Part shown: one piece after another, positions 1,168-61,517 of the stretch
Layout: every line of letters starts with the position of its first letter
Numbering within the stretch: position 1 is the first letter of the stretch
Assembly (NCBI GenBank): GCA_013112715.1
Contig: JABFGB010000021.1
Span: 1-64,000 of the forward strand
Origin: Chloroflexota bacterium
GTDB taxonomy: Bacteria; Chloroflexota; Anaerolineae; Aggregatilineales; J027
Length of the DNA: 64,000 nucleotides
Reading direction: 5' to 3'
Made by a program: the position numbers and the translations under genes
The notes under the pieces: model-generated
Database searches by the model: none
The model's input: the letters and a program-made list of their open reading frames with translations, nothing else
What the model was told of the DNA's origin: nothing

Positions 1168-2778
1168 CTAAAGAGAGCGGGCCAAACGAAAACCCTGATA
1201 GTGGTTCATCCTATCAGGATTGAACCAGTGGCGGACGGCAGCGCGGAGAAAGTCTGAATCGTCATACCTCCACGAGCCACCCCGCACCACGCGAGGCGAA
1301 TTAGTATTAATATTTATGCTATCTGTATCAAATTCCGTCAAACACCATTCCCAAACATTGCCACTCATATCCATAATCCCAAAGTGACTTGCCCCTTTGG
1401 GATATTGGGTGACGGGGGTGGTCTGACCCACATTTCGAGCAAAATTACAGCGATCTTTGTCGGGTGGTTCATTACCCCAAGGATACTGCCAGCCCGTATC
1501 ACCAATCGCGGCTCGTTGCCATTGCTGGTCGGTAGGCAGCAGGATTTTTTGTTGGGTGCGCTGTTCTAGCCAGCGGCAAAACGCGATGGCATCATACCAG
1601 CAAACATCCGTGCGGGGCAAGTCATCCCCCGCAAAAGCCGTATTGGCAGGAGATTGATGTTCTTTGCGCCATGCTTGGGCAAATTCGGAATAGTCCCACC
1701 ACTTGGTATTGGTATAGCCGTCTTTGGCATCTACAAAAGTTTGATACTGCTTGTTGGTGACAGGATATTTGGCAATTGCAAAATCGGGGATAGTGAAATT
1801 ACCCATACCATCTTCCAATTCGACCACTCCGCCGAGAATGTCAATCCATTCGAATGGGCCACCAATGACATCGCGCACGGCTTTGGAGAAGTCTACTTTG
1901 GGTGGTTGCGGTGCAACTTGGGCAACTAGCTTACCACCTAAATCATCGGGGTCATAATCAGGTTCAACCTGCCAAACTTGAACCAAGACGTCCCAAATTT
2001 CTTCGGCAGGCAGGCCGCGTTTTTTCATGCGCCGCGCAAAGCCATAAAGGTAATCCGCCATTTCACGCCGTCGCCGCTTTTCTTCCTCAATACGTAGGGT
2101 TTCTAAGATACGGGCTTCGCGCTGGCCTAAATCAACCGGAACGTTGACCCCCATCTCCCGGATTTTGGCGATCCAACCGAGGGCTTTGGGCCAATCGTGG
2201 CTCTGTTCGGCTTCCAAAAAATAATCAAAGGCATCATAGACACCGATAAAAGTATCCGCTTTCGGGGCGGCTTCAGTTGTCGGCTCAATTACCACCCTCG
2301 CAAGGCCCTGTGCAGCAATTTGGGTTTCCAAACTATGGGTGATGCGGTCAATGCGCTCCAAAATATCGCTACCATCGCGTAGTTGGGCAATATTGCGGTC
2401 AAAAATGGGACGAAGGCTAGGCGGGATTAAGGTCTCATCCGGCACACTGGCATCTTTGATACAAATTGGGGCAATGACTTTGCCGTGTTTGAGGGCTTCT
2501 TCTAATTCAATCCGCACATAATCCGGTTTGCCCGCCGCTGCTTTATCTTGCATCAGCTTTAGCCATTGTGGGCCGATCACAGCGACCACCGCATCGGCCT
2601 CACGGACTTTTTCGCGGATGAAATCTTCAAAACGGGCAAATTCGGGAATGGTGTCGAAATCCATGAACACATTTTCGCGCCCATAACGAATCATGAACCA
2701 TGTCCGCATATGCTGAACAAAATCGGCGTTATCCGCACGGCGATAATTGACAAAAAGTTTTAGCTGCTTTTCCGACAT
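1168..2778 (-). CDS. TIR domain fused to an FGE-sulfatase-like (C-type lectin fold) domain
   Basis: The 536-residue protein begins with a TIR domain (about 5-130): LFVNYRRAD is the first strand and box 1, and E91 in IELEEAL is in the position of the catalytic glutamate of TIR NAD-cleaving enzymes. A helical linker (about 180-285) follows, then an FGE-sulfatase domain (about 305-536) with the hallmarks YPVTNKQY, GNVWEW and RVVRGGSW. The two catalytic cysteines of true formylglycine-generating enzymes, expected after GGSW, are absent here (R and L instead), so this domain most likely binds rather than oxidises. In known systems such domains are used as variable recognition modules. The gene is divergent from a macrodomain gene, and ADP-ribose products of a TIR enzyme are natural macrodomain ligands. 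A role in immunity or signalling is inferred. AAAGG precedes the ATG by 6 bases. Confidence 0.85.
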   Translation of the reverse strand: MSEKQLKLFVNYRRADNADFVQHMRTWFMIRYGRENVFMDFDTIPEFARFEDFIREKVREADAVVAVIGPQWLKLMQDKAAAGKPDYVRIELEEALKHGKVIAPICIKDASVPDETLIPPSLRPIFDRNIAQLRDGSDILERIDRITHSLETQIAAQGLARVVIEPTTEAAPKADTFIGVYDAFDYFLEAEQSHDWPKALGWIAKIREMGVNVPVDLGQREARILETLRIEEEKRRRREMADYLYGFARRMKKRGLPAEEIWDVLVQVWQVEPDYDPDDLGGKLVAQVAPQPPKVDFSKAVRDVIGGPFEWIDILGGVVELEDGMGNFTIPDFAIAKYPVTNKQYQTFVDAKDGYTNTKWWDYSEFAQAWRKEHQSPANTAFAGDDLPRTDVCWYDAIAFCRWLEQRTQQKILLPTDQQWQRAAIGDTGWQYPWGNEPPDKDRCNFARNVGQTTPVTQYPKGASHFGIMDMSGNVWEWCLTEFDTDSININTNSPRVVRGGSWRYDDSDFLRAAVRHWFNPDRMNHYQGFRLARSL

Positions 2779-2927
2779 AACCAGCCTTTGGGGGACAAAT
2801 CTTTCTATGCAGAGTATGATACATTATGCCTACGATATGGCTTTATTGCAAACGATTTCCCTATGTTAATGCGGATACGGTACAATGCGGGTGTAGAATA
2901 GCGATAGGCCAGCATGAGGATTATGGG

Positions 2928-3512
2928 ATGGAATTTGTCCTCAATAAATTACAAGTTCAATTGATGCAGGGCGACATCACCGAACTAGACACCGATGCTA
3001 TCACCAATGCCGCCAACAGCTATCTCGTTTTGGGCGCAGGGGTGGCGGGGGCGATTGCACGCAAAGGTGGCCCATCTATCCAAGAAGAGTGTTACGCCAT
3101 CGGACACTGCGAGGTGGGCAAGGCAGCCATCACAGGCGGCGGCAACCTTAAAGCCAAATACGTGATTCATGCTGTTGGGCCGATGATGGGGGAAGGCGAT
3201 GAGCACGCCAAACTTGCCAGTACGTTTCGTTCGGTGTTGGAACTCGCCGAGGCCAATAAATTGCATTCTGTCGCTCTACCTGCGATTTCTACTGGAGTTT
3301 TTGGTTTCCCGGTGGCCGACTGTGCCGAGATTTTGGCAAAACAGATCATGGATTATTCGTTTGAAAAACGCGACTATCTTCAGCAGGTGGTGGTCTGTCT
3401 CTATGACCACCGTACCCATCAAATTTTTGAGGAGAAATTCATAACCGCGCTGGAGAATGTCGAAGGTGGCGGAAATGACAGCACCGTGCTGTTTCGAGAC
3501 GATGATGACTAA
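2928..3512 (+). CDS. Macrodomain protein (ADP-ribose binding/hydrolase, MacroD-type)
   Basis: From ATG 2928 the protein is 194 residues and consists of one macrodomain: QGDITELDTDAITNAANS is the first ligand loop, GAGVAGAIARKGG the second, and PAISTGVFGFP the phosphate-binding loop. These are the diagnostic ADP-ribose-binding motifs. The longer frame starting at 2826 is rejected because GAGGA at 2916-2920 lies 7 bases before ATG 2928 and the 34 extra residues resemble nothing. The C-terminus is acidic (ends DDDD). It is divergent from the TIR-FGE gene with 149 bases between starts, so the two may share control. Possible roles are hydrolysis or sensing of TIR-made ADP-ribose species. Confidence 0.88.
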   Translation: MEFVLNKLQVQLMQGDITELDTDAITNAANSYLVLGAGVAGAIARKGGPSIQEECYAIGHCEVGKAAITGGGNLKAKYVIHAVGPMMGEGDEHAKLASTFRSVLELAEANKLHSVALPAISTGVFGFPVADCAEILAKQIMDYSFEKRDYLQQVVVCLYDHRTHQIFEEKFITALENVEGGGNDSTVLFRDDDD

Positions 3513-57152: not shown

Positions 57153-58664
57153 TTATGACGAGAGCGTGGGTAGCTCTGGCAGCGGCAGACTGAAGTCGTT
57201 ATTAAAGAACCATGCCTTCAGTGACCAGCCGACGACCTCACCCTTGCGTGGATCGTTATAGCGAATCTTGATCCAGCGTTTGTCGTTGCTTTCGCCCAAC
57301 GCAATAACCTGTGTTCCCCAAGGAACATAGCTAAGGCGGGCGCAGCGAGTGCTGGGGCAAGAACGAATGCGTACATTACCCACCGCCCGAACTTGGACAC
57401 CACCGGGAATGGGGGTCGGGGTCGGCGTTGGGCCAGCCGTCGCTTGGGCTTGGCTTGTGCCGCCATCCGTTACAGGAACACTATTAAAATCACCCGTAAA
57501 GACGAGCCATTGCGCCAGTGACCAGCCGATCTGACCGTTGACGTTCAATTGCGCCCAAACACCATCGGCTGAACGACCCACAACCGGATAGGTTGCCCCT
57601 TTGGGCAGCAAGGCCAGCTTGGTCGCGGTGGTGGAGGGGCTTTGACGGAAGTTTAGGCCGACATTGGCATTAACCGTGCCCGTGACGCCCGTAAAGCCGG
57701 GAGTGCCGCTGGTGGCTGTTCCCGAAACAGGAGTCCCCTGAGCATTCACCGCAAACCAAGTGAATTGCAGATAGGCTTGGCGCTCAAAGTCTGCCATTTC
57801 GATGGTCAGGGTGTGCTGCCCGCCCGCGACTTGGATGGTGGCATTATAGAGGAACTCTTGGAAGTACGGTGTGGAGGCAATGATGGGTGTGCCGTCCAAG
57901 CGCACCGTGAAAATATCGTCTACCCTCCCTTCAAAACGGAAGGTACCACCTGAACCAAAATTAATGACCTTGGTGAAACGGGCCGACCACCCATCAGCGG
58001 GAACCCCAATGGCGGGTGCGGTCATATCCCAGTTAATGTTGAGGGCATCGGTTGTGACTTGGCTAAACGCGACTGCCGTACCCAACAACGAAGTATTATT
58101 AAAGTATTCAACATTCCAAACACTGGTGGTGGTTGAGGTCGCGGTTGCTACCCCTCCACTGGTAAACCAACTCAAGGCAATTTGAGCGTTACCTGTCAGG
58201 GCTTGATATTCCAGAATAATATTCACCGATTGGCCGGGGATGGTGTTGGAATAGAAGCCGCTTAACGTGGTTGGGCCGGTTAAATCCGCACCGATTTGAT
58301 TGATAATGGTTTGTGTGCCGACAGTCAGCCGTGCCCCATCTTCAACTGTGATATTGAAAGTATAAAGTCCGGCTGTAGGCAGGATTTGGGAACTTGTCCA
58401 GCGAATGGAAAAATTATCCACCACGCCGGGTAGTTGCGCTGGCCCGCTTGCGCCATAATTAAAGTTAATGGCGGTATCACAAGGGGAAGTTCCAGTGGGC
58501 GATCCGATAAAATTGTTGTTATTAAAAAACTGGCCTGTCCAACAGCCTGTCTGAGCTTCGGCTACCTTTGGCTTGCCGCCTGTATTGGGAAGTAGCGTGG
58601 CAAGACCGAGTACAATGATCCCACATAAGGCGAGAATGGATAAGCGCAAGACTTGTCGTTTCAT
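57153..58664 (-). CDS. Secreted protein with two PA14-like and two SH3-like domains
   Basis: The 503-residue protein has a signal peptide (hydrophobic 8-26, cleavage near AEA-QT). Two PA14-like beta modules follow (about 40-168 and 180-310): WTGQFFNNNNFIGSP with YTFNITVEDGARLTV, then WNVEYFNNTSLLGTA with FRFEGRVDDIFTVRLDG. Two bacterial SH3 modules close the protein (about 330-390 and 425-490): VGLNFRQSPSTTATKLALLP and VRIRSCPSTRCARLSYVPWG. It probably binds cell-surface or matrix glycans. It stands alone. Confidence 0.87.
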   Translation of the reverse strand: MKRQVLRLSILALCGIIVLGLATLLPNTGGKPKVAEAQTGCWTGQFFNNNNFIGSPTGTSPCDTAINFNYGASGPAQLPGVVDNFSIRWTSSQILPTAGLYTFNITVEDGARLTVGTQTIINQIGADLTGPTTLSGFYSNTIPGQSVNIILEYQALTGNAQIALSWFTSGGVATATSTTTSVWNVEYFNNTSLLGTAVAFSQVTTDALNINWDMTAPAIGVPADGWSARFTKVINFGSGGTFRFEGRVDDIFTVRLDGTPIIASTPYFQEFLYNATIQVAGGQHTLTIEMADFERQAYLQFTWFAVNAQGTPVSGTATSGTPGFTGVTGTVNANVGLNFRQSPSTTATKLALLPKGATYPVVGRSADGVWAQLNVNGQIGWSLAQWLVFTGDFNSVPVTDGGTSQAQATAGPTPTPTPIPGGVQVRAVGNVRIRSCPSTRCARLSYVPWGTQVIALGESNDKRWIKIRYNDPRKGEVVGWSLKAWFFNNDFSLPLPELPTLSS

Positions 58665-59010: not shown

Positions 59011-59379
59011 TTATTCTCCAAGAAAGCCACGCACGGTCTCAAGTAATTCGGTCATATTGATAGGCTTGGGCAAATATCCATCGCACCCGGCTGCAAGAAA
59101 TCGTTCAGCGTCGCCACGCATGGCGTTGGCGGTCAAGGCAATGACTGGGATATGTTTGGTCTCTGTAGTTGCTTTGATAACGCCTGTTGCCTCAAGGCCG
59201 TCCATGCCGGGGATATTGATGTCCATCAGAATTAAATCGGGCAATTCATGCTTGGTAATCTCGACCCCCGCCAAGCCATCTTCGGCCTCAAGCACCTCAT
59301 AGCCTCGTGAAACAAGGATTTTGCGAACGAGGCGCTTATTTTGGGCGTTATCTTCCACATACAAAATCCGTTTAGTCAT
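59011..59379 (-). CDS. Stand-alone receiver (CheY/DivK-like) protein
   Basis: The 122-residue protein is one REC domain: ILYVEDNAQNKRLV with the acidic pair, phosphoacceptor D53 in LILMDINIPGMDG, Thr in VIALTANAM, and K105 in GYLPKPINM. All catalytic residues are present. There is no output domain, so it acts by protein contact, as DivK does. Its ATG overlaps the stop of the upstream threonine-synthase-receiver fusion (ATGA), so the two are made together. Confidence 0.93.
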   Translation of the reverse strand: MTKRILYVEDNAQNKRLVRKILVSRGYEVLEAEDGLAGVEITKHELPDLILMDINIPGMDGLEATGVIKATTETKHIPVIALTANAMRGDAERFLAAGCDGYLPKPINMTELLETVRGFLGE

Positions 59380-61517
59380 TACTTTGCGTCCTTTTCGCTG
59401 ATAATTTTATCCACATGCGCGACTAACGCCTGTCGATCTAATGATGGTTTTACCCAGACGCTGCAATTGTTTTCTCGGAAGATAGTCTTTTCTTCTTCAG
59501 AAAGGTCTTTAGCGGTCAAAATGACAATAGGAATGGCCTTGAGGCGCTCACTGGCTTTTAGCTCTTTCAATAGCGTAATCCCGTCAGTGTCGGGCAGCAT
59601 CATATCAAGGACAATGAGACGTGGCAGGCTCTCTTCGAGCATGGTCTTGGCATCTTTACCCGTATAGGCTTCCAAAACCTGATAGCGCCGAGTGGCCTCC
59701 AAAATGCGGCGGACTAAGCGTGCATCGCGGCGATTATCGTCAATGACTAGGACTTTAGTTTCGGCAACGGCCTCTAACGCATCCACGACGCTGTTGGCAA
59801 CCTCGCCAACCGTCGTTTTGATAGGTTGGTCGGGCGATTTTAAATTACTGCCCAAGCGTTCCACCACATGGTCAACTAACTCACGGGTGTTGAAGCTGCC
59901 TTTTTGCCAAAGTGAATCTACTTGACCTTCGAGGACAGCACGATCGCGTGCGGTCAAGGTCTTTGCCGAGACCACGACCACCGGAATATCACGGGTATCG
60001 GGATCGGCTTTCAGGCTTTCGAGGAGGGTAAACCCATCCATTTCGGGCATGGTCAGGTCGCTGACGACCAAGTCGGGTTTGCGCTGGCGCACGAGGTCAA
60101 GGCCATCCAGCGGATTATTGGCTTCAAAGACACGGTAATTCTTATGATTTTGCAGCAGGCGGCGGATGAGACGACTGTCTTGTGGATTATCATCAATAAT
60201 CACGACGGTAGTGACTTGTTCATCCAATTTGGCAAGGGCCGCTCCGAGACCTTCCTCAATTTTATTGGTGGCAGCCATTTCGCCTTCGGGATGCCCAAGT
60301 TGGAGATCGAGCACGTACTCGTCTTCCAAAACATGTTTTTCAGCCGGGAAGGTATGACCCGAACAATTGACGACGATAAATTCCTCTGGTTTTAGCAGGC
60401 CTTCGGCAGCTAGCTGCTCTAACCCTGCAAACGCCACCGACGCGGCGGGTTCCATGCTGAGGCCTTCACTGCGGGCTAGGCGGCGCATGGCACGGAAGGC
60501 GGCCCCATCATTGGCGGAAATCATCGTGCCGCCTGTTTCGAGGCAGGCTTGACGCAAAATTTTATAGCCGCGTCCGGGATCACCTGTGGCGAGCACGGAA
60601 ATGCGGGTACGTGGGGTCACGGGTTCGGCTTCATCCTTCCCCAGTTTCCACGCCTCGACCATCGGCGCACAGCCTTCAACTTGGATAATGCCGAGTTTGG
60701 GCATTTTATCAATCATGCCCATGCGCATCAGTTCTTGGAAGCCCTTCCAAATCCCAATCGGGCCAATGCCGCCGCTGACCGCTTGGATGTACCAATCGGG
60801 GGCACGCCATTTGCCATCCACTGTTGGGGCATACCGCGCCAACTGCTCGGCGATTTCAAACGCGATAGTCTTAAGGCCTTCTTTGCCGGGGATGGCAGTT
60901 GTGCCGGGGTCAAGATAGAGATTGCGACGTTCGGCAAAGTCTTGGGCGACCTTCTTGGCTTGGTCATAGGTCCCGGCGATTTTGACCACCTCTGCCCCAT
61001 AGAGGCCCAGTTCACGCAGTTTTTCGTTGGGTACCATGCTGGTGAGGAAAATCCATAGGCGGATACCGGCTCTGGCACAATAGGCCGCATATGCCGCTGC
61101 TTTATTGCCCGTTGAGGCTAGGACGCATTCGTTTTTATTGGCTTGCACCAACGCCGCCGCCCCAACCGCTGCCTGACGATCTTTGAACGAACTGGTCGGG
61201 CCTTGCCGCTCGTCTTTAATGAAAATATTGGGGAGCTTTAGTTCTTTTTCAAGATTAATGGCATGAATCAGCGGCGTCCATCCCTCACCCATTGTGATAG
61301 GACGTTCGGGGCGGGCGACGGGCAGTAATTCTTCGTACCGCCAGAGGTCGCTTTCACGATCACGCAAACCTGCCGACCAAATTTTCTTGGCGGTCTCAAA
61401 ATCGTAATCGGCTTCAATCCAAGCCGAACCGCATTTTTCACATGTTTTGGCGAGGGGGTCAGGCGGCATTGCATAACCACAATCCCGGCATACCAATTGG
61501 GTCAGCAGAGATGGCAT
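59379..61517 (-). CDS. Threonine-synthase-like PLP enzyme fused to two receiver domains
   Basis: The 712-residue protein has an N-terminal zinc-ribbon-like segment (C10, C13, C26, C29), then a fold-type II PLP domain (about 45-415) with PLP lysine K112 in GPTSSFKDRQAAVG, STGNKAAAYAAYCARAG, and the phosphate loop AVSGGIGPIGIWKG, matching threonine synthase. REC1 (about 436-552) has D442/D443, D487 in VVSDLTMPEMDG and K539; REC2 (about 587-705) has D592/D593, D638 in IVLDMMLPDTDG and K690. Both receivers appear competent for phosphorylation. The reaction expected is O-phosphohomoserine to threonine. Why it should be joined to receivers is unknown; control by phosphorylation is inferred. Confidence 0.9.
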   Translation of the reverse strand: MPSLLTQLVCRDCGYAMPPDPLAKTCEKCGSAWIEADYDFETAKKIWSAGLRDRESDLWRYEELLPVARPERPITMGEGWTPLIHAINLEKELKLPNIFIKDERQGPTSSFKDRQAAVGAAALVQANKNECVLASTGNKAAAYAAYCARAGIRLWIFLTSMVPNEKLRELGLYGAEVVKIAGTYDQAKKVAQDFAERRNLYLDPGTTAIPGKEGLKTIAFEIAEQLARYAPTVDGKWRAPDWYIQAVSGGIGPIGIWKGFQELMRMGMIDKMPKLGIIQVEGCAPMVEAWKLGKDEAEPVTPRTRISVLATGDPGRGYKILRQACLETGGTMISANDGAAFRAMRRLARSEGLSMEPAASVAFAGLEQLAAEGLLKPEEFIVVNCSGHTFPAEKHVLEDEYVLDLQLGHPEGEMAATNKIEEGLGAALAKLDEQVTTVVIIDDNPQDSRLIRRLLQNHKNYRVFEANNPLDGLDLVRQRKPDLVVSDLTMPEMDGFTLLESLKADPDTRDIPVVVVSAKTLTARDRAVLEGQVDSLWQKGSFNTRELVDHVVERLGSNLKSPDQPIKTTVGEVANSVVDALEAVAETKVLVIDDNRRDARLVRRILEATRRYQVLEAYTGKDAKTMLEESLPRLIVLDMMLPDTDGITLLKELKASERLKAIPIVILTAKDLSEEEKTIFRENNCSVWVKPSLDRQALVAHVDKIISEKDAK

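Follow-up and report, generated by a model that had tools for sequence, protein, structure and literature searches.

Does a single gene of this Chloroflexota genome join an amino-acid enzyme to receiver domains, and, if so, what would the enzyme catalyze and what would the receivers do to it? A preliminary description of the window (the whole stretch of DNA that was analyzed, 64,000 nucleotides) had reported one uninterrupted frame for a complete fold-type II PLP enzyme with K112 and a zinc-ribbon start, followed by two complete receivers with D487 and D638. The frame was borne out at exactly 59379–61517, but on the minus strand: it runs without interruption from an ATG at 61517 to a stop codon ending at 59379 and encodes a 712-aa PALP-REC-REC fusion (P0001), as supported by the ORF, Pfam, and full-length orthologs. 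The domain content held as well. All on the minus strand, the N-terminal zinc-ribbon cysteines C10, C13, C26, and C29 (61431..61490) are conserved in 30 of 30 aligned homologs; the fold-type II PLP enzyme domain (Pfam PALP, residues 74–387, 60357..61298) contains the Schiff-base lysine K112 (61182–61184; conserved in 101 of 101); receiver 1 (REC1; Pfam Response_reg, residues 437–556, 59850..60209) has its phospho-acceptor at D487 (60057–60059); and receiver 2 (REC2; a second Response_reg stretch, residues 587–706, 59400..59759) has its own at D638 (59604–59606). The PALP (PF00291) match spans the profile in full (1–295 of 295) at 213.6 bits, against a gathering score of 35, and full-length matches above the gathering score were obtained for 30 of 30 homologs. 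Both receivers carry the acid pair, phospho-accepting Asp, Thr/Ser, and Lys of response regulators.

Downstream lies a gene for a single-domain receiver of 122 aa (59011..59379, minus strand; ORF and Pfam), whose start codon overlaps the last base of the fusion stop codon (TAATG). The next gene downstream (57153..58664, minus strand) encodes a 503-aa PA14/SH3 protein (Pfam; neighbor cluster c5); both the window's family and one related family conserve it downstream of the long fusion. Upstream of the fusion is a divergent solute-binding-protein gene. Elsewhere in the window, a TIR domain is fused to an FGE-sulfatase (SUMF1-like) domain (1168–2778, minus strand; Pfam), and its divergent neighbor is a macro-domain gene (2826–3512, plus strand; Pfam); the TIR protein and the ADP-ribose-binding macro domain may be an NAD-linked signaling or defense pair.

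The enzyme–receiver fusion is genuine. It occurs at full length in five assemblies of the genus (95–99% identity) and at about 100 homologous loci, and these independent loci rule out an assembly join or frameshift, the objection that the preliminary description had itself raised. The same domain order was found across Chloroflexota, and the named records among these loci are Anaerolineae/Chloroflexi. A fused copy was present in 52 of the 61 genomes of the order sample, in which the sole match of one genome (G040) was a stand-alone protein; in about 62 of the 199 genomes sampled from the class, counting rows of 300 bits or more; and in about 29 of 251 genomes of the phylum sample, six of them outside the class (G348, with a short fusion, is one such carrier). 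Fused homologs mostly scored at least 500 bits, and no stand-alone Chloroflexota relative exceeded 242; a few partial matches at contig edges fell in between. No plasmid-borne copy was found among 72,556 plasmids. No fusion was detected in the 198, 199, and 199 sampled genomes of Desulfobacterota, Acidobacteriota, and Planctomycetota, respectively, at a threshold of 1e-72 and with no positive control; this threshold was chosen to keep out ordinary ThrC, and a divergent fusion would escape it. Apparent N-terminal extensions of 1,192–1,695 aa at two loci (L129 and L195) were set aside as probably non-coding stop-free read-through in GC-rich DNA.

The fusion exists in a long form (PALP-REC-REC, about 700 aa) and a short form (PALP-REC, about 555 aa), and the two often occur within the same genome; the short copy of the window's genome is at C13:107733-109358, next to a histidine kinase gene. 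In the receiver tree, REC1 of the long forms and the sole receiver of the short forms formed one group (support 0.955), apart from which fell REC2 and the stand-alone downstream receivers. Among the long forms, mean pairwise identity was 64% for the enzyme, 62% for REC1, and 42% for REC2. Because REC1 is conserved like the enzyme and groups with the receiver of the short forms, the enzyme and REC1 appear to be one evolving unit; as read from these comparisons, the ancestral unit is the enzyme plus REC1, and REC2 is most likely a later addition that was lost again in a few members. The functional residues of both receivers are retained: D487, S517, and K539 of REC1 and D638 and K690 of REC2 were invariant in 50 homologs, and neither the phospho-acceptor Asp nor the switch Lys varied in either receiver of 50 long forms or in the receiver of 40 short forms.

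Homologs that lack receivers, a case anticipated in the preliminary description, do occur, if marginally: unfused close homologs (46–51% identity) were found in four of 194 sampled Cyanobacteria, and no adjacent receiver was seen where the flanking sequence was readable. We considered the unfused cyanobacterial form as the ancestral state and set it aside, since the best tree nests these copies within the short-form clade (99/98 with own-order copies); in the AU test, monophyly of the fused proteins was not rejected as an alternative (p-AU 0.105). The cyanobacterial copies are thus apparently nested inside the fused clade. They share the signature FKDRQ, SGGMGP, and ATGxPG, and because these motifs are kept, the enzyme domain seems to have value without receivers; under either topology, its retention without a receiver favors real chemistry.

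Which enzyme is it? All 101 fused homologs retain the PLP core (K112, N138, S135-T136-G137, and G249-G250-G252) and have Ser or Thr at residue 386, and the SGGxGP loop is essentially invariant among them; the Schiff-base Lys, PLP-contacting Asn, and glycine-rich phosphate loop of a PLP enzyme are therefore all in place. Relative to the genus copies, dN/dS was about 0.02 across the gene and low in every domain, with dS near saturation against the copy of 95% identity. A degenerate enzyme was ruled out by the invariant core together with this ratio. The closest solved folds are threonine synthases (2c2b: Z 40.5, 2.6 Å over 387 residues). It would be conceivable, then, that the fusion provides a second isozyme of threonine synthase, controlled by phosphorylation. 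That structural proximity speaks for it, as does the fact that some close relatives exceed the TIGR00260 cut-off (185.9, 175.4, and 170.4); furthermore, the gene cluster of some Anaerolineae goes on to encode a PRK08197-type "threonine synthase" that stands alone. The window protein itself, however, fell below every ThrC equivalog cut-off (TIGR00260: 142.5 against 167.1; PRK08197: 268 against 303).

Comparison of the PLP site with characterized threonine synthases, as the preliminary description had advised, gave a kept core with replaced surroundings. In the Thermus enzyme, Arg160, Asn154-Ser155, and Thr88 lie near the substrate, and we take them to be contacts of the substrate phosphate (Arg160 from work on 1v7c). 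By alignment, on which the whole pocket argument is based, the Arg at Thermus position 160 is present in all compared ThrC chains and in the genome's own ThrC but in 0 of 101 fused homologs, in which the equivalents of Thr88, Asn154, and Ser155 are also replaced. Most long fusions do have Lys/Arg at residue 212, one position after the Arg160 equivalent, so a compensating phosphate contact that stands in for the lost Arg is possible.

A second, conventional thrC was also looked for and found: the window's genome encodes, on C6, a ThrC above the TIGR00260 cut-off that adjoins a prephenate-dehydratase-like gene (named by eye). Matches to this ThrC of at least 250 bits occurred in 54 of 61 relatives, and 47 of the 52 fusion-bearing genomes carry both genes. 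Since the fused enzyme lacks the residues shared by the compared ThrCs and the genome encodes a separate ThrC, the substrate of the fusion is probably not O-phosphohomoserine. The window enzyme is, on this reading of the sequences, probably not the housekeeping threonine synthase, and with a conventional ThrC already encoded, a phosphorylation-controlled isozyme strikes us as decidedly improbable. Two further observations concern ThrC-like genes. In one family of the order, thrC lies about 10–20 kb from PALP-REC-REC on the same contig (G044:C69, G035:C68, G052:C2, and G012:C15), and a third ThrC-like enzyme (G000:C2:206391-207515; L004/L186), barely above the TIGR00260 cut-off, neighbors carbamate-kinase-like and carbamoyltransferase-like genes (named by eye).

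The gene neighborhood is that of a two-component system. Among homologous loci having an upstream gene, 44 of 57 had a same-strand histidine kinase gene directly upstream, often overlapping the fusion by 4 bases, and in 37 of 56 the next downstream gene was a same-strand receiver or REC-HK gene. By Pfam, the kinases that we examined are multi-sensor and combine GAF with PAS, HAMP, and Cache domains in varying sets, and the operons often contain several kinases and receivers. At the window locus, as in the window's genus, no kinase gene is adjacent. The preliminary description had proposed phosphorelay control of threonine synthesis; the two-component embedding supports the former part, whereas threonine synthesis is weakened by the separate ThrC, by the window protein's scores below the equivalog cut-offs, and by the ThrC residues replaced in the 101 fused homologs.

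Other genes recur in these clusters. Long-form clusters often extend to a GNAT acetyltransferase gene (14 loci), and an EamA transporter gene follows in 10 of the 20 short-form loci fetched; these EamA genes (cluster c4; L169:7015-7962, L165:9710-10795, and eight further loci) belong to a superfamily of amino-acid exporters. In several Anaerolineae genomes, the PALP-REC and REC genes are closely followed by the gene for the stand-alone threonine-synthase-like enzyme of PRK08197 type (L077:7931-9229, L171:9365-10552, and L173:5803-7029), which suggests a metabolic link. Several PALP-REC clusters have a ParA/MinD-type AAA_31 ATPase gene (cluster c6; L169:12785-13573 and six further loci) between sensor and kinase genes. 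At L170 and L176, the sensor ORFs upstream of PALP-REC (826 and 824 aa) contain an R-x-W-[YF] ... Y-x-D pattern that resembles the dCache_1 amino-acid-binding motif; as this was seen at these two loci only, we do not use it as main evidence.

Taken with the conserved catalytic residues, this context leads us to favor, with some reserve, a response regulator with a PLP-dependent amino-acid enzyme as its output, switched by phosphorylation. A partner kinase would phosphorylate D487 of REC1 and, in proteins that have REC2, D638 as well; through the 388–436 linker, phosphorylation would then alter how the enzyme packs or oligomerizes. Enzyme activity on a free amino acid would thereby be raised or lowered, with either direction of control compatible with the model. 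The chemistry would be beta-elimination or beta-replacement, such as the deamination of threonine/serine or a reaction with activated serine/homoserine, and the substrate would be an amino acid other than O-phosphohomoserine. Because the kinase gene is no longer adjacent in the window's genus, the fusion would there be driven in trans, perhaps along with the product of the receiver gene that overlaps it downstream. Since the enzyme is joined to receivers, usually beside a sensor kinase, Chloroflexota probably steer amino-acid chemistry directly by signaling, not through gene expression alone. A point against the regulator reading is that the receivers are C-terminal and that the AlphaFold model of the window protein (mean pLDDT 79, pTM 0.56) reveals no receiver–enzyme interface, as expected from this pTM and from disordered linkers at 388–434 and 558–585.

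The C-terminal position of the receivers would suit a reversed direction of information flow, in which the PLP domain is the input. It would be a ligand sensor, catalytically slow or dead-end, that binds an amino acid as an external aldimine and thereby alters how the receivers accept or transfer phosphate within a phosphorelay (HK-REC-REC, PALP-REC, REC-HK). The frequent presence of several kinases and receivers per operon, and the fact that no DNA-binding output was recognized among the neighbors scanned, would fit such a relay. The substrate carboxylate is bound in this fold by the STGN loop, and this loop is invariant, as a ligand sensor would require. Invariance, however, extends beyond this binding loop to the whole catalytic set, and the persistence of unfused cyanobacterial copies without adjacent receivers is a better fit to an enzyme; we regard the sensor as unlikely, if worth keeping in mind. 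The same invariance bears on the notion that the PLP domain is a structural or protein-docking module that bears the receivers and is neither enzyme nor sensor. Moonlighting of fold-type II enzymes is established, and CysK-like proteins can act in complexes; yet the Schiff-base Lys and the cofactor loops are wholly invariant over 101 proteins, and a mere docking role is scarcely credible.

A more specific version of the enzymatic output would have the fused enzyme make an amino-acid-derived extracellular signal under kinase control. The cluster would then form a self-contained circuit that makes, exports, and senses the signal, with the synthase itself as the response regulator. This idea draws on the EamA-family exporter in half of the short-fusion loci fetched, two of which have the dCache-like sensors, and we consider it a long shot.

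If the phosphorylation-switched output is correct, a whole phylum has a phosphorylation switch built into an amino-acid enzyme, and thereby a post-translational path that links environmental sensing with metabolism without passing through transcription. The fusions would also represent a distinct subfamily of PLP enzymes that tends to be annotated "threonine synthase", a name that is predicted to misdescribe many genes in Chloroflexota and some in Cyanobacteria.

How does the fusion compare with known systems? With threonine synthase (COG0498, TIGR00260, PRK08197; PDB 2c2b, 1uim, 2zsj, and 2d1f) it has the fold, the Schiff-base Lys, and the STGN loop in common, and the N-terminal zinc ribbon is common to the fusion and the genome's own ThrC, although identity to the solved ThrCs is about 23–33% over the aligned part. 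It differs from ThrC by its receivers, by its signature (FKDRQ / SGGxGP / ATGxPG / SGHTF), by the replacement of the Arg160 equivalent and neighboring ThrC residues, and, for the window protein, by scores below the ThrC cut-offs. ThrC-like enzymes can deaminate threonine, as is known from a cyanobacterial ThrC with threonine-deaminase side activity (PMC12172450); that PLP-dependent enzyme is of the same superfamily but stands alone, without receivers. No fusion of a PLP enzyme with a receiver was found in the literature searched, and an earlier mention in the response-regulator reviews of Galperin (2006/2010) is possible. Bacteria and archaea are known to have standard metabolic enzymes with receiver domains attached (PMC5847659), so the fusion of a receiver with an enzyme is a known concept, whereas a PLP enzyme as its output appears to be new within the literature searched. 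In the Lqs/Cqs clusters (PMC3376566), a PLP enzyme is encoded with its sensor kinase, and in Lqs also with a response regulator, but that enzyme is aminotransferase-like, is not fused to a receiver, and has a known signal product. KaiC-REC, the BcsA-type glycosyltransferase-REC (PMC5847659), CheB, and PleD all join one or more complete receivers to an enzyme, as the present fusion does; unlike them, the fusion has a PLP-dependent amino-acid enzyme as its output and is spread phylum-wide rather than within one genus or family.
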